From Spirosoma luteum DSM 19990 (GTDB lineage: Bacteria > Bacteroidota > Bacteroidia > Cytophagales > Spirosomataceae): a stretch of 64,000 nt of DNA. Made by a program: the position numbers and the translations under genes. Positions 36,102 through 44,645 of this stretch are shown here, one piece after another. Below the pieces are notes generated by a model. The model was not told where the DNA came from. It was given only the letters and a program-made list of their open reading frames with translations, and ran no database searches. The stretch spans positions 868,001 to 932,000 of the forward strand of contig NZ_KB893245.1 of NCBI RefSeq assembly GCF_000374065.1. The letters run 5' to 3'. How positions within the stretch are numbered: position 1 is the stretch's first letter; each line of letters begins with the position of its first letter.

Positions 36102-36557
36102 CTACGGGCGGATAACAGCCCAGCCGTCTTCCTGACGGATAATAAGTTCGCCGTTGGCGGTGGGGACGTAGCTGATGAAGGGGAATAACTCCTCCCGTTT
36201 GATTTTCCGCATCCGCATAGTGTTTTCGCACATGGCTAGAATAACACCCTGCTTTTGCAGATTTTGAAGTTGTTGTTCATACTGAGGCTTGTCTTTGCGG
36301 TACAGTATGTTTGCCCCACCATACACGACCAGCTCCATGTCCAGTTTTCCTTTCAGGCGTGGGTCGTTCAGGGCGTTCTGGATGTTGGCCAGGGCGTGAC
36401 TGATAACGGATGTGTCGGCCGTGTTCAACTGGTATACCGCCCGGTAGCGCGACTTGGTAGCTTCGGCCCCGTGGAAGGCACCGGTCTCACTGGTTTGCGC
36501 CATGGCCGGAGCGATAGCCAGTAACACGAGCGCGAACAGGTAGGTTAGTTTTTTCAT
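36102..36557 (-). CDS. Exported DsrE-family protein
   Basis: This 151-residue protein has a signal peptide (MKKLTYLFALVLLAIAPAMA) and a DsrE-like fold: YRAVYQLNTADTSVISHALA, then LDMELVVYGGANILYRK and LQKQGVILAMCENTMRMRK. One Cys (in AMCENTM) sits where sulfur-carrying DsrE proteins hold their reactive residue. It lies 24 bases after a TsdA-like cytochrome gene on the same strand, hinting at a role in periplasmic sulfur chemistry. A terminator follows at 36048-36086. Confidence 0.85.
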   Translation of the reverse strand: MKKLTYLFALVLLAIAPAMAQTSETGAFHGAEATKSRYRAVYQLNTADTSVISHALANIQNALNDPRLKGKLDMELVVYGGANILYRKDKPQYEQQLQNLQKQGVILAMCENTMRMRKIKREELFPFISYVPTANGELIIRQEDGWAVIRP

Positions 36558-36581
36558 GGTTGCTTTATTTTTCAGGTGAAG

Positions 36582-37502
36582 TTACTGTTTCTTTCGGGCA
36601 TCGGCAATGGGCTGAAACGGGCCAAACTTATGCTGCTGTTCCGGGAAGGCATCGGCATAGGGGCCGGTGGGGAAATCAATTGGTTTGCTGGCTACGTTAG
36701 GCCAGTCATGGCTTTGGTCTTTGTGGGGGCGGGGCATGGAGTTAATGAAGGCTCCTACATCCCAGGCTTCCTCGTCGGTTAATTGCGGATTAGCGTACGA
36801 ACTCCCAAAAGGCATGTTGTTTTTAACATACCCGGCAAAGCTGGATAAGCGGTACAGGCCCGCTCCATCATTATAACTGTTTGGCCCCCACATGGGTGGA
36901 TAAACGTATTCCGATGCTCCGGCCACTTTCGTTCCTTCGCCTTTTACGCCGTGGCAAACCTTACATTTGGCCACATATATCTGTCGGCCTTTGGTGGAAT
37001 CAGCGGCACGGTCCAGGTAGGCTACTTTTACCAGACCTACCCCCTCGGGCCGTTGCCCTTTGGCCACATCTGTACCAAGCCACCGCATATACGCTACCAT
37101 CGCCTGCATTTCCCGGCTCGCACTGTCGGGTGCTTTGCCCCCCAAACTGCGTTCAAAGCAATCGGATATGCGTTTAATGACCGTTTCTACCGCCCCCGAC
37201 CGTTCGCGAAAACGGGGATAGGTGGAAAACACGGCGGAGTAATTATTGCCCAGAACTTTGGTACCCGCTTCAAGGTGGCAGTTCTGGCAGTTCATACCGT
37301 TGGACAAATGCTTCACCGAACCATTTGGCCCCAGGTACTTAGCCGTGTGAGCAACCAGGTCGCGCCCATACCGGATTTGTTTACCCAGTGCTCCGGCCGG
37401 AATTTGGCTGTCGGCAGGCGGTTTCCAGTAAGTTGGTGGTACCAGTGCGGCCAGCGTAACTACGCAGATAAGGCCACTAAGAATGATTAAATGCTTCATC
37501 AA
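36582..37502 (-). CDS. Dihaem cytochrome c, TsdA-like thiosulfate dehydrogenase
   Basis: This 306-residue protein has an N-terminal hydrophobic signal or anchor (LIILSGLICVVTLAALVPP) and two haem-binding motifs, CQNCH at residues 72-76 and CKVCH at 180-184. Cys115 in RISDCFERSLGG corresponds to the unusual Cys axial ligand of thiosulfate dehydrogenase TsdA, and GNNYSAVFSTYPRFRERSG is typical of that family. It likely interconverts thiosulfate and tetrathionate in the periplasm. The DsrE gene downstream supports a sulfur role. The direction of the reaction cannot be told from sequence. Confidence 0.82.
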   Translation of the reverse strand: MMKHLIILSGLICVVTLAALVPPTYWKPPADSQIPAGALGKQIRYGRDLVAHTAKYLGPNGSVKHLSNGMNCQNCHLEAGTKVLGNNYSAVFSTYPRFRERSGAVETVIKRISDCFERSLGGKAPDSASREMQAMVAYMRWLGTDVAKGQRPEGVGLVKVAYLDRAADSTKGRQIYVAKCKVCHGVKGEGTKVAGASEYVYPPMWGPNSYNDGAGLYRLSSFAGYVKNNMPFGSSYANPQLTDEEAWDVGAFINSMPRPHKDQSHDWPNVASKPIDFPTGPYADAFPEQQHKFGPFQPIADARKKQ

Positions 37503-38780: not shown

Positions 38781-40193
38781 ATGAATCTGTTAAAAACCCT
38801 CCACCAGTTTCCCCTCTTTGACCAGGTACCCGACGAGCAACTTCAGTGGTTTATTGACCGGGCCGAGGTTGTCTCCTTGCCCGAAGAGACCGTCATTAAC
38901 AAACCCGGCTCACCAGCCGATTACCTGATAGTGCTGCTCGACGGTCGTATTCGGATTGATGCCGGAACGGGTGGGGCCGGGGATGAGTTGCTGTCTTTTG
39001 AACCACATTCGGTGCTGGGTGTGCTGCCTTTTTCGCGCATGAAAACCAATGTAAACTGGGTAATAACCAGCTCACCAGTGCAGATGCTGCAACTGCACCG
39101 TACCCACCTGCCCGACCTGATTCATACGTGCTATGAACTGACCGAAAGCCTGGTGCATCAGATGACTACGCGGGTTCGGGACTTTACTAAACTGACCCAG
39201 CAAAATGAGAAATTAGCGTCGTTGGGTCGGTTGTCGGCGGGGTTGGCGCACGAACTGAACAACCCGGTGGCCGCCGTTGTGCGCTCGGCCGATACGCTTA
39301 GAACCCACATGCGGGCTACACCGGAAGCGTTCAAGACCATTATGCACCTCAGCCTGACCGACGAGCAGGTCGATTCAGTGAATACCGTATTCTTTAAAAA
39401 AGTAGACCAGCAGTCGGGCGCAGACCCGGCACAGCGTCTATCACTTCTGGAACGGAGTAGTCTGGAGGATGAAGTAGCCGACTGGCTCGACGATCATGGC
39501 GTTGATGATACCATGGACCTGGTTGGGCCACTGATTGACTACGGTTTTACGGTGGATGACCTGGACTGGATTCTGGAAAAAATTGGCGATGAGAATCTGG
39601 CCGGTGTAATTAACTGGCTGGTTAACAATTTGGTGACCGAAAAGCTGGTATTCGACATCAGCGAGGCATCCAAACGTATTTCTATCCTGACCGACTCCAT
39701 CAAAAACTACACGCATATGGACCGGGGTGGGGGTAAAGAAACGGTTAAACTGGCCGACGGTATTAACAATACCCTCACGCTGCTGAATCACAAAGTAAAA
39801 AGTAAACATATTACCGTGACGGTAGCCTTAGCGCCCAACCTGCCCGCCATTTGTGGCTGGCCTGGTGAATTGAATCAGGTCTGGACAAACCTGATTGATA
39901 ATGCCATCGATGCCATGCCCGACGGAGGCTCCCTCGCCATTGACAGTCAGCTTGATGAACGGCCCGACGGGTCGGCGTTTGTGCTGACCAAAGTAATCGA
40001 CAACGGGTCTGGCATTTCGGCCGATATCACCGATAAAATATTCGAGCCTTTTTTTACGACAAAGGAAATCGGCAAAGGCACCGGACTCGGACTGGACATT
40101 GTGCAGGGTATCATAAAGCATCACAACGGTTCCATAAAAGTAAAATCAGAACCGGGTCGCACCGAGTTCAGCGTATGCCTGCCCACTCAATGA
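38781..40193 (+). CDS. Histidine kinase with N-terminal cyclic-nucleotide-type domain
   Basis: This 470-residue soluble kinase starts with a CAP_ED/cNMP-binding-like domain (FPLFDQVPDEQLQWFIDRAE, then LIVLLDGRIRI) over residues 8-125. A HisKA region with the phosphorylated His in LSAGLAHELNNPVAAV follows, then an insertion of about 130 residues, then HATPase_c with the N box IDNAIDAMPDGG, ITDKIFEPFFTTK and GTGLGLDIVQGI. There is no membrane segment, so it senses an internal cue. It is followed by a receiver-domain fusion protein that is its probable target. The stop codon lies inside an octamer repeat. Confidence 0.93.
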   Translation: MNLLKTLHQFPLFDQVPDEQLQWFIDRAEVVSLPEETVINKPGSPADYLIVLLDGRIRIDAGTGGAGDELLSFEPHSVLGVLPFSRMKTNVNWVITSSPVQMLQLHRTHLPDLIHTCYELTESLVHQMTTRVRDFTKLTQQNEKLASLGRLSAGLAHELNNPVAAVVRSADTLRTHMRATPEAFKTIMHLSLTDEQVDSVNTVFFKKVDQQSGADPAQRLSLLERSSLEDEVADWLDDHGVDDTMDLVGPLIDYGFTVDDLDWILEKIGDENLAGVINWLVNNLVTEKLVFDISEASKRISILTDSIKNYTHMDRGGGKETVKLADGINNTLTLLNHKVKSKHITVTVALAPNLPAICGWPGELNQVWTNLIDNAIDAMPDGGSLAIDSQLDERPDGSAFVLTKVIDNGSGISADITDKIFEPFFTTKEIGKGTGLGLDIVQGIIKHHNGSIKVKSEPGRTEFSVCLPTQ

Positions 40194-40284
40194 GTGAATG
40201 AGCGAAAGGGTGCCAGAGCGAAAAAAAACGCCTGATACTCTTTCGCTCATCTACCCATTCGCTCATTCAATCTTTCGCTCTTTA
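40189..40284. repeat. Octamer-repeat inverted repeat between kinase and receiver genes
   Basis: Octamers of the AAnGAGyG family run from 40189 to 40220 (AATGAGTG, AATGAGCG, AAAGGGTG, CCAGAGCG), and their complements from 40239 to 40284. The arms pair imperfectly (about 24 of 29). The first unit includes the stop codon of the kinase gene. The hairpin may attenuate transcription into the next gene. Confidence 0.8.
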
Positions 40285-40292
40285 TAAAAGTT

Positions 40293-41954
40293 ATGCGTCT
40301 TCCTATCATTTTTGCCATTGACGACGACCCGCAGGTATTGCAGGCTATTCAGCATGATTTACGGCAGCAGTACCGCAAAAAATACCGTATCCTTTGCACC
40401 AGTTCGTCCCAGGAAGCCCTCGATTCGTTGCCTGAGCTAAAAAAGAAAGGCGAAGTTGTGGCCCTGTTCCTGTCGGACCAGAAGATGCCCGTTATGACGG
40501 GTGTCGAATTCCTGTCGAAGGCGCGTAAACTGTTCCCCGATGCCAAACGGGCCTTGCTGACGGCCTATTCCGACATCGACGCGGCCATACGGGCCATTAA
40601 TGAGGTACAACTGGATTACTACATCGCCAAGCCCTGGGACCCACCCGAAGAAAAACTGTACCCGGTGCTGGAAGACCTCCTTGCCGATTGGCAGGCGAAC
40701 TACCGGCCCGATTTTGATGGGTTAAAGCTGATCGGCTATCAGTTTTCCCCCCGGTCTCACGAGTTGAAAGATTTTCTGGCGGGTAACCTGTTCCCGTATC
40801 AGTGGCTCGATATAGAAACGAACCCACGGGCGCAGGAGCTGCTTGATTTGCACGGAAAGAGCCAGAGCGATTTACCCGCCGTTGTTTTTGACGATGGAAC
40901 GCTTTTGACTCAGCCCAGCCTGAGTGAAGTAGGCGAGAAACTGGGACTACAACCCAAAGCGTCTCTGGGGCTTTATGACCTGGCCATTATTGGCGCTGGT
41001 CCTGCCGGACTGGCAGCCGCTGTTTACGGGGGTTCAGAAGGGCTGAGAACGATTCTGGTCGATAAAAGAGCCCCCGGTGGGCAGGCAGGTACTAGCTCCC
41101 GCATCGAAAATTACCTCGGTTTCCCCAATGGCCTGAGCGGGTCCGACCTGACCCGGCGGGCCATTACCCAGGCACAACGGTTTGGCGTAGAGTTTCTGGC
41201 TCCGCAGGAGGTCGTTTCTATCAAGTCGCAGGGGCAGTATAAGCACATAAAAATGTCGGACGACACGGAAGTTGTAGCGCGGGCTATTGTGCTGAGCACC
41301 GGGGTATCGTACCACAAACTGGAAAACGAAAGCCTCGATAAATACACCGGAGCGGGCGTTTATTACGGCGCAGCTACTACCGAAGCTGTCGCCTTTAAAG
41401 GGAAGACTGTGTACATCGTGGGCGGGGGGAACTCGGCTGGTCAGGGAGCTATGTACCTGTCCCGTACGGCGGCCCAAGTGTTTATCTGCGTCCGGCGGCC
41501 GGACTTGTCCGAAACAATGTCGCAATACCTCATCGACCAGATTGACAAAACACCCAATATAACGGTGGTGGGCTGTACCGAAGTGGTAGAGGGGCTGGGC
41601 AATAATGAGCTGGAGTGCCTGGTGCTGGAAGATATGGATACAAAAGAGCACCGGACAGTGGAAGCCGCCGGACTGTTTATTTTTATTGGGACGAAACCCT
41701 TCACCGACTGGATAGAGATGGATATCCTGAAAGACCCGAAAGGCTTTATCGCTACGGGCCGGGATATGGCGAAGTTTGCCGAGTTCAGAAGCGTCTGGAA
41801 ACTGGGGCGGGAACCCTACCTGCTGGAAACCTGTAGCCCCGGTATTTTTGCCGCTGGCGATGTTCGGGCGGGTGCCATGAATCGGGTAGCATCGGCCGTA
41901 GGCGAAGGAGCCATGGCCGTAAGCTTCGTCCATAAATACCTGGCCGAAAACTAA
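40293..41954 (+). CDS. Receiver domain fused to a thioredoxin-reductase-like flavoprotein without CxxC
   Basis: This 553-residue protein has three parts. A response-regulator receiver domain (1-130) carries acidic Asp10-12 and the phospho-acceptor Asp62 in FLSDQKMP. A glutaredoxin-like segment (about 145-225) has SPRSHELKDFL where a redox Cys would stand. The rest is a thioredoxin-reductase fold with FAD motif IIGAGPAGLAAAVYG and NADP motif IVGGGNSAGQGA. The CATC-type redox centre just before the NADP motif is replaced by YYGAATTEAV, so it cannot reduce thioredoxin in the usual way. It probably forms a phosphorylation-controlled NAD(P)H flavoprotein working with the upstream kinase. Confidence 0.9.
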   Translation: MRLPIIFAIDDDPQVLQAIQHDLRQQYRKKYRILCTSSSQEALDSLPELKKKGEVVALFLSDQKMPVMTGVEFLSKARKLFPDAKRALLTAYSDIDAAIRAINEVQLDYYIAKPWDPPEEKLYPVLEDLLADWQANYRPDFDGLKLIGYQFSPRSHELKDFLAGNLFPYQWLDIETNPRAQELLDLHGKSQSDLPAVVFDDGTLLTQPSLSEVGEKLGLQPKASLGLYDLAIIGAGPAGLAAAVYGGSEGLRTILVDKRAPGGQAGTSSRIENYLGFPNGLSGSDLTRRAITQAQRFGVEFLAPQEVVSIKSQGQYKHIKMSDDTEVVARAIVLSTGVSYHKLENESLDKYTGAGVYYGAATTEAVAFKGKTVYIVGGGNSAGQGAMYLSRTAAQVFICVRRPDLSETMSQYLIDQIDKTPNITVVGCTEVVEGLGNNELECLVLEDMDTKEHRTVEAAGLFIFIGTKPFTDWIEMDILKDPKGFIATGRDMAKFAEFRSVWKLGREPYLLETCSPGIFAAGDVRAGAMNRVASAVGEGAMAVSFVHKYLAEN

Positions 41955-41976
41955 GAGGTGTAGGATGGTCAAAATA

Positions 41977-42007
41977 CCCAGCCCCTCCACAGTAGGGAGG
42001 GGCTGGG
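41977..42007. terminator. GC-rich hairpin, terminator-like
   Basis: CCCAGCCCCTCC (41977-41988) and its exact complement (41996-42007) around a 7-base loop. No T-tract follows, so it is at most a weak terminator or an RNA-stability element between the flavoprotein and zinc-finger genes. Confidence 0.6.
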
Positions 42008-42068
42008 GTGTACGTCATCAATCGATACTCCCTTTACCCCCTATATCATACATCATATAGCCAAAACT

Positions 42069-42341
42069 ATGCTTAAACAAACCACCTGCAACCACTTATC
42101 AGCCATCACCAATATCCGTCCGGCCACTGAATACGTTTGCGACGAATGCGTAAAAACGGGCGATACTTGGGTGCACCTGCGTACCTGCCAGACGTGCGGA
42201 ACGACGCTTTGTTGCAATTCTTCCCCCAACCAGCACGCTACGAAGCATTTTTTAGCCAGTCATCACCCGGTAGTCATCTCCGCCGAGCCGGGTGAACGGT
42301 GGCTCTGGTGTTACGCTGATGAACAAATGGCCGCATATTAA
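42069..42341 (+). CDS. UBP-type zinc finger protein
   Basis: This 90-residue protein is essentially one UBP-type zinc finger: TTCNHL at the start, VCDECVKTGDTWVHLRTC, CQTCGTTLCCNSSPNQHATK and HFLASHHPVVIS with a final WLWCY. In eukaryotes this fold binds the ubiquitin C-terminus; bacterial copies are often beside REC or thioredoxin-reductase-like genes and their ligand is unknown. It follows the kinase and flavoprotein genes on the same strand, which suggests one functional unit. The remaining 145 bases before egtB hold another inverted repeat. Confidence 0.85.
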   Translation: MLKQTTCNHLSAITNIRPATEYVCDECVKTGDTWVHLRTCQTCGTTLCCNSSPNQHATKHFLASHHPVVISAEPGERWLWCYADEQMAAY

Positions 42342-42486: not shown

Positions 42487-43671
42487 ATGATTGCTGAACA
42501 AACACTAACTGAACAATACCTGCGTGTACGGGCTCATTCCGAGGCCATCTGCCGGGGACTCGAAACCGAAGATTATGTTGTGCAACCCATTGCCGATGTG
42601 AGCCCGCCCAAGTGGCATTTGGGGCATACAACCTGGTTTTGGGAAACATTTCTGCTGGCTCCGAACCTCCCCGGCTATCGCGTTTTTCACGACGATTTTA
42701 GCTACGTTTTCAACAGCTATTACGAAACTGTTGGCAAGCGGGTTCTGCGTACGAACCGGGGTAATTTGAGCCGCCCAACGGTGGCGGGTGTGTATGCGTA
42801 CCGAGCGTATGTAGATGAACACATGAGTCGCTTTCTGGATACGGCTGCCTTTACGGATGATCTGCTTGCCCTGATTGACATTGGGCTAAATCATGAGCAG
42901 CAACACCAGGAACTGCTTATTACGGACATCAAGTACATTCTGGGTCATAATCCCCTGCTTCCGGCCGTGGAGATGCCTTTTGTTGAGTATCCCACGCTGA
43001 CCAACGCCCCGCCCGTTAGTCTTGAGTCGGGTATTTACACGATTGGTTTCCAACGCAACGGACGGGGGAACGGCGCATTCTGCTTTGACAATGAACTGAA
43101 TCCGCATAAGGTGTACCTCAACGACACAGTGCTGAACGGCAATCTGGTCACCAATGGGGAATATAGCGCGTTTATCGAGTCCGGTGGCTATCAAAATTTC
43201 CGATACTGGTTGTCCGATGGTTGGGCGTGGGTCAACGCAAATGGTGTTCAGGCTCCGTTGTACTGGCATAGGATTGACGGTAACTGGTGGTATTATACCT
43301 TCGACGGCTTGCAACCCGTTGACCCGGATGCGCCGGTTAGTCACGTTAGCCAATACGAAGCCGACGCGTATGCCCGCTGGAAAGGGCAGCGGCTCCCCAC
43401 CGAATTTGAGTGGGAAGCCGCTGCCCAATCGGGTGGTATCAACTGGGGAACCCGCTGGGAGTGGACAAATTCGGCTTACCTGCCTTATCCCGGTTTCGTA
43501 ACCGCCGAAGGTGCCGTGGGCGAATACAATGGTAAATTCATGAGCGGACAATTGGTATTGCGCGGTGCCTCGGTGGCCACACCCGAAGGGCACTCCCGAC
43601 CAACCTACCGCAATTTTTTTCAACCTGACAAGCAATGGCAGTTTACGGGAATACGCCTGGCGAATCTATAA
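42487..43671 (+). CDS. egtB: Ergothioneine biosynthesis protein EgtB
   Basis: This 394-residue non-haem iron enzyme joins a sulfur donor to trimethylhistidine. The N-terminal DinB-like part carries the iron ligands (KWHLGHTTWFWETFLL and LNHEQQHQELLITDI), and the C-terminal FGE-sulfatase-type part carries RLPTEFEWEAAAQSGG and VLRGASVATPEGHSRPTYRN. The start codon follows the AAACCGTGAAC repeat by four bases. Its TAA overlaps the egtD ATG, so the pathway genes are coupled. Whether it uses cysteine or gamma-glutamylcysteine is not readable here. Confidence 0.94.
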   Translation: MIAEQTLTEQYLRVRAHSEAICRGLETEDYVVQPIADVSPPKWHLGHTTWFWETFLLAPNLPGYRVFHDDFSYVFNSYYETVGKRVLRTNRGNLSRPTVAGVYAYRAYVDEHMSRFLDTAAFTDDLLALIDIGLNHEQQHQELLITDIKYILGHNPLLPAVEMPFVEYPTLTNAPPVSLESGIYTIGFQRNGRGNGAFCFDNELNPHKVYLNDTVLNGNLVTNGEYSAFIESGGYQNFRYWLSDGWAWVNANGVQAPLYWHRIDGNWWYYTFDGLQPVDPDAPVSHVSQYEADAYARWKGQRLPTEFEWEAAAQSGGINWGTRWEWTNSAYLPYPGFVTAEGAVGEYNGKFMSGQLVLRGASVATPEGHSRPTYRNFFQPDKQWQFTGIRLANL

Positions 43672-44645
43672 TGGAAACGCCTTTTATGGAGCAGCACGAA
43701 TCCGATGCGGCCCTGGTTGATGAAGTACGAACGGGGTTGCAGCAAATCCCCAAGCGGCTATCGTCACGCTTTTTTTATGATGCCGAAGGAAGCCGAATTT
43801 TTGCTGAAATAATGCACACGCCGGACTACTACCTGACCCGGTCAGAGTACGAAATTCTGGATACCCAGAAGGCCGACCTGCTGCGGTTATTCACTCCGGA
43901 CAAACGCTCGTTCGAATTGGTAGAACTGGGTGCGGGTGACGGCCTGAAAACAAAAATTCTACTGGGCTTTTTAGCCGATCAGCAAGCCGATTTTACCTAC
44001 GCTCCCGTTGATATCTCGGGCGATGCGCTGGATAAACTGGTGGCTGATGTGCAGCAACAATGGCCTGACTTGCTGCTGAATGCCCGGCATGATGATTACT
44101 TCAATGCTCTGGAGCAACTTTCCGAAGAATCCAACGCCCGGCGTATCGTGCTGTTTCTGGGTTCCAACATCGGCAATTTCACCCCCGATGAAGCTATTGA
44201 TTTTTACCGGCAGCTTCACGACCGATTGCAACCCGGTGACCTGGTTCTGACGGGTTTCGACCTGCAGAAGCACCCGGCCATTATCCATGCGGCCTACAAC
44301 GACCGGATGGGCCTGACCCGCGCTTTCAACCTGAACCTGCTCCGGCGCATCAATACCGAACTGGATGCCGACTTCAATCTGGCTGCTTTTGACCACTACG
44401 AAACCTATAACCCCGAAAGTGGTGAGGCTCGTTCGTACCTGGTTAGTCAGAAAGCGCAGACGGTTCGGATCAATGCACTCGATATGGCGGTACCATTTGA
44501 CTACGGAGAAATTATCCATACCGAAATTTCCCGCAAGTTTACCCGCGCCCAGATTGAGGAATTGGCTCGCCAAACCGGCTTTTCGGTAACCGGCTGGTTT
44601 ACCGACTGTAAAGGCTATTTCGCCGATGTAGTATTTGAGCGGTAG
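43671..44645 (+). CDS. egtD: L-histidine N-alpha-methyltransferase EgtD
   Basis: This protein of about 324 residues trimethylates histidine to hercynine, the substrate of EgtB. I chose the ATG at 43671 because it overlaps the egtB stop (TAATG) and directly precedes the conserved region; an ATG at 43635 would lie inside egtB. Landmarks are SRFFYDAEGSRIFAEIMHT, the SAM motif LVELGAGDGLKTKILL, FLGSNIGNFTPDEA and the C-terminal IHTEISRKFTRAQIEELA. With EgtB this gives a minimal two-gene ergothioneine route. A terminator follows at 44671-44707. Confidence 0.94.
   Translation: METPFMEQHESDAALVDEVRTGLQQIPKRLSSRFFYDAEGSRIFAEIMHTPDYYLTRSEYEILDTQKADLLRLFTPDKRSFELVELGAGDGLKTKILLGFLADQQADFTYAPVDISGDALDKLVADVQQQWPDLLLNARHDDYFNALEQLSEESNARRIVLFLGSNIGNFTPDEAIDFYRQLHDRLQPGDLVLTGFDLQKHPAIIHAAYNDRMGLTRAFNLNLLRRINTELDADFNLAAFDHYETYNPESGEARSYLVSQKAQTVRINALDMAVPFDYGEIIHTEISRKFTRAQIEELARQTGFSVTGWFTDCKGYFADVVFER

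Follow-up and report, generated by a model that had tools for sequence, protein, structure and literature searches.

What is achieved by a sensor kinase, a redox flavoprotein and a small zinc-finger protein that are encoded side by side is the question raised by a locus of Spirosoma luteum DSM 19990 (contig NZ_KB893245.1, positions 868,001 to 932,000). The whole of this 64,000-nucleotide stretch is referred to here as the window, and coordinates are those of the window. Three genes on the + strand encode a histidine kinase of 470 aa (38781..40193), a flavoprotein of 553 aa in which a receiver domain precedes a glutaredoxin (Grx)-like and a thioredoxin reductase (TrxR)-like part (40293..41954), and a protein of 90 aa with a UBP-type zinc finger (zf-UBP; 42069..42341). 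The original prediction had taken the three as one signalling unit, had proposed that phosphorylation may control NAD(P)H oxidation, and had left the output unnamed. The present analysis confirms its open reading frames and their coordinates, and demonstrates that the genes are linked well outside this organism. The explanation that fits best, advanced tentatively, is a phosphorylation-gated flavoprotein that would act through the zf-UBP protein on cation/proton antiport.

The linkage was assessed in one genome per species, scanned with aligned receiver-type flavoproteins of several phyla. Of 141 confirmed loci the best 80 (L125-L204) were taken, and neighbouring genes were mapped by local profiles within flanks of up to 8 kb, a kinase being called above 100 bits (a few kinase matches, as in L126 and L076, are partial). 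These loci, and 51 of the 54 Bacteroidota places (L032-L082), were chosen without regard to their neighbours. Among the best 80, a kinase orthologue lies within 8 kb of 39 of the 48 receiver-type flavoproteins as compared to 0 of the 32 non-receiver ones, while a zf-UBP gene is present in the flanks of 16 of 48 and 9 of 32, respectively. Over L032-L204, 114 of 126 receiver-type flavoproteins have a kinase nearby, as compared to 1 of 46 of the non-receiver type; this tally is biased by the plasmid loci L112-L124, hand-picked from both hit lists (L114, L117, L123 and L124 through zf-UBP), and by L092-L100, picked for the lack of zf-UBP in their short flanks. The sole non-receiver locus with a kinase, L083, was considered as a natural three-gene split and rejected, as its receiver lies in a separate overlapping frame, an apparent frameshift. 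In the first 30 family loci, that of the window included (1.5-kb flanks), the kinase is found in 28 and zf-UBP in 19.

The order of the genes is not fixed. Most Bacteroidota loci, and the Gemmatimonadota locus L132, have the kinase upstream; it is downstream in the Bacteroidota loci L058, L068, L069, L074 and L075 and in Cyanobacteriota, Actinomycetota, Chloroflexota and Acidobacteriota, and on each side of the flavoprotein in the two Pseudomonadota loci (L118, L129). Since gene order varies by phylum, the kinase-flavoprotein pair has been kept through rearrangement. Two kinase paralogues occur within 8 kb of a receiver-type flavoprotein in L118, L125, L129 and L157. All three genes stand together in Bacteroidota, in Actinomycetota (Tsukamurella L113, Streptomyces, Nocardia) and in one cyanobacterium (L126), and zf-UBP is present somewhere in 22 of the 28 receiver-type genomes outside Bacteroidota (assigned by title, from the best 80 of 141 loci). 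A survey of 395 Bacteroidota genomes found the flavoprotein in 53 and an over-cut-off zf-UBP in 36; both are present in 33, the flavoprotein alone in 20, zf-UBP alone in 3 and neither in 339 (Fisher 8.6e-31, phylogeny uncorrected). In 23 of the 33 genomes with both, the two lie within 5 kb of each other. Gene linkage is thus far beyond chance, and the absence of conserved linkage, which the original prediction had named as its refutation, is not what is seen. That kinase and receiver form a pair is near certain, and zf-UBP is likely to be their functional partner; phosphotransfer from the kinase to the flavoprotein is predicted from this linkage.

Orphan zf-UBP genes were also encountered. In receiver-type genomes outside Bacteroidota, L222, L223, L230, L232, L234-L236 and L238-L241 have no flavoprotein, kinase or antiporter detected in about 3 kb on each side. 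The orphans of nearer relatives (L210-L219) have no neighbour common to all ten, while L215-L218 have neighbours in common and L214 adjoins a Kup-like K+ transporter, recognised by eye.

The kinase retains what a two-component kinase needs for catalysis. Its HATPase_c domain (39867..40187, +) scores 80.2 bits in Pfam, well over the cut-off, and N374, D407, G409, G411, K428, G431, G433, G435 and G437 are identical in 33 of 33 aligned kinases, as is His157 (39249..39251, +), the predicted phosphoacceptor, so that phosphoacceptor, N box and G boxes are all present. The HisKA match is below the Pfam cut-off (21.5 against 26.9 bits). The N-terminal domain (residues 3-106; 38787..39098, +) had been read as cNMP-type (cyclic nucleotide monophosphate-binding); its cNMP_binding match of 24.0 bits is likewise below the cut-off of 27.5, and the reading is upheld by a match of residues 7-127 to PDB 3mdp, a solved cNMP-domain protein (E 3e-5), by a compact strand-rich domain in the structural model (predicted local distance difference test, pLDDT, 88.9) and by the profile comparison described below. 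A helical insert of about 90 residues (180-268; 39318..39584, +) interrupts the hairpin of the dimerization and histidine phosphotransfer (DHp) domain, as evident from model and alignment; the spacing between residues 172 and 292 is 113-127 aa in all 33 kinases, which come from several phyla, and is modelled as helical. A fold search returned ordinary kinases only, among the matches listed, and the domain list suggests a soluble protein.

The receiver domain of the flavoprotein (model pLDDT 88.3) occupies residues 6-118 (40308..40646, +; Response_reg, 51.9 bits) and carries the acidic pair, Asp, Thr and Lys of a receiver site. In the 35 aligned receiver-type sequences, D10, D11, T90 and K113 are each kept in 34, D62 in 33 and D12 in 32. 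Asp62 (40476..40478, +), named earlier as the phosphorylation site, is borne out by the alignment as the predicted acceptor. The domain that follows (40722..40943, +) is glutaredoxin/thioredoxin-like according to profile, model and alignment, its stretch 152-217 matching mycoredoxin TIGR02200 weakly (28.1 bits, cut-off 89.5); its active-site stretch reads SPRSHE and is free of Cys.

The TrxR-like module (residues 228-550; 40974..41942, +) was recognised by profiles, model and fold search. Pyr_redox_2 matches residues 228-539 with 108.2 bits, and the nucleotide-binding motifs for flavin adenine dinucleotide (FAD) and NAD(P)H (G234, G236, G239 and G377, N380, S381, A382) are each invariant in 35 of 35 sequences. 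The position of the redox-active CxxC reads YYGAAT here (41361..41378, +). Tyr358-Gly359 is present at this site in all 35 receiver-type sequences (site pattern Y/F/W-Y-G-A/S/G), and no CxxC occurs at the TrxR position among the 35 receiver-type and 43 non-receiver aligned sequences. The window flavoprotein lacks both the Grx Cys and the CxxC, as originally described. The sole frequent Cys, in column 368, is found in 29 of 35 receiver-type and 37 of 44 non-receiver rows (the window protein being one of the 44), and is Phe in the window protein. The absence of the CxxC and the Phe of column 368 rule out, for the window flavoprotein, any relay of dithiols that would use a conserved pair of Cys. 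The Foldseek neighbours listed are AhpF and TrxR; a classical thioredoxin reductase or AhpF was ruled out by the missing CxxC together with scores under the cut-off (227.9 bits against 343.45 for the thioredoxin reductase equivalog TIGR01292), and owing to the missing CxxC the protein is no ordinary thioredoxin reductase. With its active sites intact, phospho-control of NAD(P)H oxidation appears plausible.

Flavoproteins that lack the receiver throw light on the sensor. In 36 of the 46 non-receiver loci at least 130 residues precede the Grx-like domain and in 10 fewer than 40; the latter 10 therefore lack a sensor domain (among the loci counted, L117 contributes a short fragment, and the start of L124 is overlong). 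The cNMP_binding domain is over the Pfam cut-off in all 4 non-receiver flavoproteins scanned, fused to the flavoprotein. In hhalign, the N-domain profile built from these 36 and the one built from the kinases match with 99.6% probability (E 1.6e-24, a one-profile comparison), and because these profiles match, the same type of sensor seems to be fused to the flavoprotein or, when a receiver is present, to be placed on the kinase. Both N-domains belong to a large superfamily, so the match would not by itself prove a direct domain transfer. On a Rhodococcus plasmid (L114), a flavoprotein of this kind lies within a chaperone operon together with thioredoxin (dnaK-grpE-dnaJ-cbpM-clpB-trxA-zfUBP-cNMP/TrxR).

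The zf-UBP protein is a genuine member of PF02148 (49 bits, gathering cut-off 22.7), its nearest solved chains being 2ida (E 6e-26) and HDAC6 5g0f (E 7e-5). Nine residues, C24, C27, C40, C43, C48, C49, H56, H60 and H66, are conserved in 29 of 29 aligned bacterial sequences, and an extra zinc site of the window protein (C7, H9, C81) is missing from several relatives. The bacterial proteins resemble the eukaryotic HDAC6 domain in fold, in zinc-binding Cys/His and, in most, in the WCY motif. In HDAC6, R1155 contacts the C-terminal Gly of ubiquitin, according to PMC10424181; unlike HDAC6, the window protein has Ser51 at this position, and none of the 29 bacterial sequences has Arg there. Ubiquitin-tail binding, mentioned earlier as known from eukaryotic members, is not supported by this comparison, and the role of a ubiquitin-tail reader was rejected. 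The search of the literature surfaced no experimental function for a bacterial zf-UBP, and plasmid records name members of the set 'FAD-dependent oxidoreductase' and 'UBP-type zinc finger domain-containing protein'.

Clustering of neighbouring genes brought up an unexpected partner, the cation/proton antiporters. Their density was taken from a PF00999 search of 45 of the 56 relevant Bacteroidota genomes, which yielded 123 antiporters in 185.7 Mb. In these genomes, an antiporter is found within 3 kb for 23 of 32 zf-UBP genes as compared to 0.18 expected, and for 21 of 43 flavoprotein genes as compared to 0.24 expected; outside one family (f24) the proportions are 6 of 15 and 5 of 26, respectively. 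The usual order in f24 is antiporter, often a DsbA/Thioredoxin_4 gene (between antiporter and zf-UBP in L036 and L077), then zf-UBP, kinase and flavoprotein. Relatives whose operon adjoins an antiporter include L032-L044, L046-L048, L068-L071 and L074, with Pfam TrkA_N in L032 and L068-L071, and one antiporter (L068) carries a Glutaredoxin domain. In other families the two are fused. A Na_H_Exchanger+TrkA_N antiporter bears zf-UBP at its C-terminus in the Bacteroidota loci L069, L070 and L207 (and, by local profile only, L074), and the same fusion is found on a Deinococcus plasmid (L123). In Actinomycetota, Na_H_Exchanger without TrkA_N is fused to zf-UBP in L224 and L226 and adjacent to it in L225, L227 and L233. 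The fusions thus comprise two antiporter types and three phyla. Moreover, in all 3 Bacteroidota genomes that have zf-UBP without the flavoprotein, an antiporter is beside or fused to zf-UBP. Matches of the local antiporter profile in L205 and L220 are void, its seed there being a DUF389 protein, the same in both; the PF00999 searches, the Pfam scans and a separate single-sequence search are independent of that seed.

Several observations weigh against extending this association to S. luteum. No antiporter is present in the window's operon, and both Na_H_Exchanger genes of the organism's own genome are on other contigs. Of the 32 zf-UBP genes, the 9 that have no antiporter at a distance of up to 3 kb all belong to the window's family, order or class (f1-f4), while the 23 linked ones are all outside the window's class, 17 of them in a single family. 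Profiles detected no antiporter in the best 80 of the 141 flavoprotein loci, receiver-type or not, and the 5 zf-UBP genes of the 11 genomes (of 56) left out of the antiporter search have none nearby in the stretches covered. From the 43 zf-UBP places in receiver-type genomes of other phyla, 20 were taken, long frames being favoured: an antiporter is fused to zf-UBP or adjacent in 5, 2 represent the operon and 13 have neither, one of these 13 having a partial antiporter 2.5 kb away and another a kinase. The lack of any antiporter within 3 kb of the zf-UBP genes of that class, in the 45 genomes searched, lowers the odds of the antiport reading. Control of cation/proton antiport is nevertheless considered the most likely output, at a confidence short of even and lower for this organism than for its relatives. 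The output thus has a candidate, drawn from the neighbourhoods of distant relatives and missing from the window's own operon. Two further ion-transport neighbours were noticed: in L085, a locus of the window's family, about 5.6 kb separate the flavoprotein from an antiporter fragment, and a bestrophin-type channel gene is within about 2 kb of the flavoprotein in L052, L057, L087-L089, L091, L108 and L174, these neighbours forming one cluster in which Pfam Bestrophin_2 is shown for L174 only.

In place of an antiporter, the window carries ergothioneine genes. On the same strand and 3' of zf-UBP are egtB (42487..43671, +; TIGR03440, 527.9 bits, cut-off 360) and egtD, for the histidine methyltransferase (43635..44645, +; TIGR03438, 302.6 bits, cut-off 290.9), the end of the former and the start of the latter sharing 37 bases. 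In 150 genomes of the window's family, strong EgtD matches are present in 56 of 59 with the flavoprotein versus 13 of 91 without it (Fisher 1.1e-24, with phylogeny as a confounder; 4 genomes in which all matches were weak were counted as EgtD-less), and in 25 of the 56 EgtD is within 10 kb of the flavoprotein, in both orientations. The co-occurrence partly reflects phylogeny; the co-location is real, and it keeps alive the explanation that the flavoprotein is an enzyme serving a low-molecular-weight thiol. According to this rival, a phospho-regulated reductase would act on such thiols or on thioredoxin-like partners, ergothioneine here and thioredoxin- or DsbA-like proteins elsewhere, with zf-UBP targeting it or protecting proteins. 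It would accommodate the Rhodococcus chaperone operon with trxA as well, and the reduction of thioredoxin and of 5,5'-dithiobis(2-nitrobenzoic acid) (DTNB) reported in PMC6544261 for a fusion of a Crp domain to a TrxR-like module. The missing CxxC and the Phe of column 368 speak against it, and Egt matches are nearly confined to the window's family, an EgtD-cluster gene being found in two other loci (L131, L175) of the best 80 of 141; on balance it is possible and rather unlikely.

That the thiol relay is gone while the FAD and NAD(P)H sites are kept would also suit a flavin-based sensor. In that reading, NAD(P)H or redox state would be detected by the flavoprotein, which would then adjust the phosphatase/kinase balance of the kinase, zf-UBP being the true output; the DHp insert of the kinase offers a possible place for such a partner to bind. 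The non-receiver module, however, occurs without a nearby kinase (0 of 32 in the best 80 of 141), and probably has an output of its own; the sensor reading is considered improbable. Least probable by far is a remnant of a ubiquitin-like tagging system, in which zf-UBP would bind a protein tail under the regulation of the other two gene products. The zf-UBP fold and its conserved zinc-binding Cys/His agree with it; the substitution of the tail-holding Arg throughout the bacterial sequences does not, and inspection by eye of the listed clusters of recurrent neighbours revealed no E1-, E2- or JAB-like gene, no profile search having been made.

The preferred explanation, gating of antiport by a phosphorylated flavoprotein, would represent a transcription-free two-component switch. 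The kinase would sense an intracellular signal by its cNMP-like domain, autophosphorylate at His157 and pass the phosphate to Asp62 of the flavoprotein. Phosphorylated Asp62 would in turn set the posture of the TrxR-like module, altering its NAD(P)H/FAD activity or exposing a docking surface; lacking a CxxC, the module would not conduct the usual dithiol relay to thioredoxin. The zf-UBP protein would be a peptide-binding adaptor that acts together with the flavoprotein; in other bacteria it is encoded next to a cation/proton antiporter or as part of one. Under redox or electrophile stress, the exchange of monovalent cations for protons would thereby be gated, in the style of KefF acting on KefC. 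The operon of the window's class does not include the antiporter, and in the window's family ergothioneine genes have taken its place. Stated in full, the scheme is a phosphorelay with a redox flavoenzyme as its response regulator, post-translational gating of the antiporter through a zf-UBP adaptor as its output, and a sensor domain either fused to the enzyme or carried on a kinase with the DHp insert. It would be a counterpart of KefC-KefF driven by phosphorylation, with two antiporter types and, in one family, a tie to ergothioneine. In this full form the scheme remains a rather doubtful proposal. The unit itself, the intact active sites, the loss of the CxxC and, in other bacteria, the linkage and fusion of zf-UBP with antiporters are demonstrated; phosphotransfer, the change of activity, the adaptor role of zf-UBP, the stress signal and the antiporter as target, this last above all in S. 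luteum, are inferred.

Parts of this design have precedents. In 2011, Burroughs, Iyer and Aravind (Mol BioSyst) reportedly assigned bacterial ZF-UBP proteins to a novel redox signalling system that depends on cyclic nucleotides and is separate from ubiquitin. The encoding of a cNMP-like domain, a redox flavoprotein and zf-UBP together fits that system as reportedly defined; here, a histidine kinase carries the cNMP-like domain, and a receiver is part of the flavoprotein. Apart from that paper, the literature search turned up no description of the gene set. KefF and KefG have the flavodoxin fold. Full activity of KefC, a K+/H+ antiporter with an RCK domain, needs the soluble NADH-binding flavoprotein KefF (PMC11150392). 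The two systems differ in that KefF is of the quinone-reductase type with flavin mononucleotide (FMN) and is unrelated to the TrxR-like flavoprotein, a further point against the proposed antiport link, and in that the Kef pair has no kinase, receiver or zf-UBP. With no RCK antiporter in the window's operon and a TrxR/AhpF-like flavoprotein in place of an FMN-dependent KefF or KefG, the window system would work like Kef and is no member of it.

Response regulators that join a receiver to a thioredoxin reductase are mentioned as a 'Mycobacterium-like combination' in PMC5847659, and mycobacterial receiver-type members with the same kinase were found here (L154, L157-L160, L162). What is described there is the architecture; the Grx-like domain, the CxxC loss, the dedicated kinase and zf-UBP are added by the present analysis. 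The fusion mentioned above, ATII-TrxR (PMC6544261), has an N-terminal Crp domain before its TrxR-like module, contains FAD and uses both NADPH and NADH; it has neither receiver nor kinase and is reported as a thioredoxin reductase. Its reported activity, which would fit a classical reductase, is also unfavourable to the antiport explanation. Its closest listed relative is from Cupriavidus metallidurans, and one homologue of strain CH34 (L121) is without CxxC; ATII-TrxR is likely to belong to the flavoprotein family described here.

A GC-rich inverted repeat with a 12-bp stem (41977..42007), which has a T-rich tail on the - strand only, separates the flavoprotein and zf-UBP genes and could partly uncouple zf-UBP-egtBD from the kinase-flavoprotein transcript. 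Scans of the locus gave 4 promoter-like sites as compared to 4.9 in shuffles, and 9 terminator-like sites as compared to 7.2. On the - strand at 36102-37502, a DsrE-like protein adjoins a SoxA/TsdA-like cytochrome c, and a ChaN-like gene, divergent from the kinase, stands between the kinase and this pair. The zf-UBP gene of the locus is the only one found in the 6.6-Mb genome. A defence system was considered and dismissed, PADLOC having returned 0 families for the three window proteins and two antiporter fusions.

It is, in our judgement, unusual for a response regulator to have a redox enzyme as its output, and the family described here cautions against calling such flavoproteins thioredoxin reductases. 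The antiporter linkage provides a concrete and cheap test of function for a gene set that is carried by soil, plant-associated and clinical bacteria.

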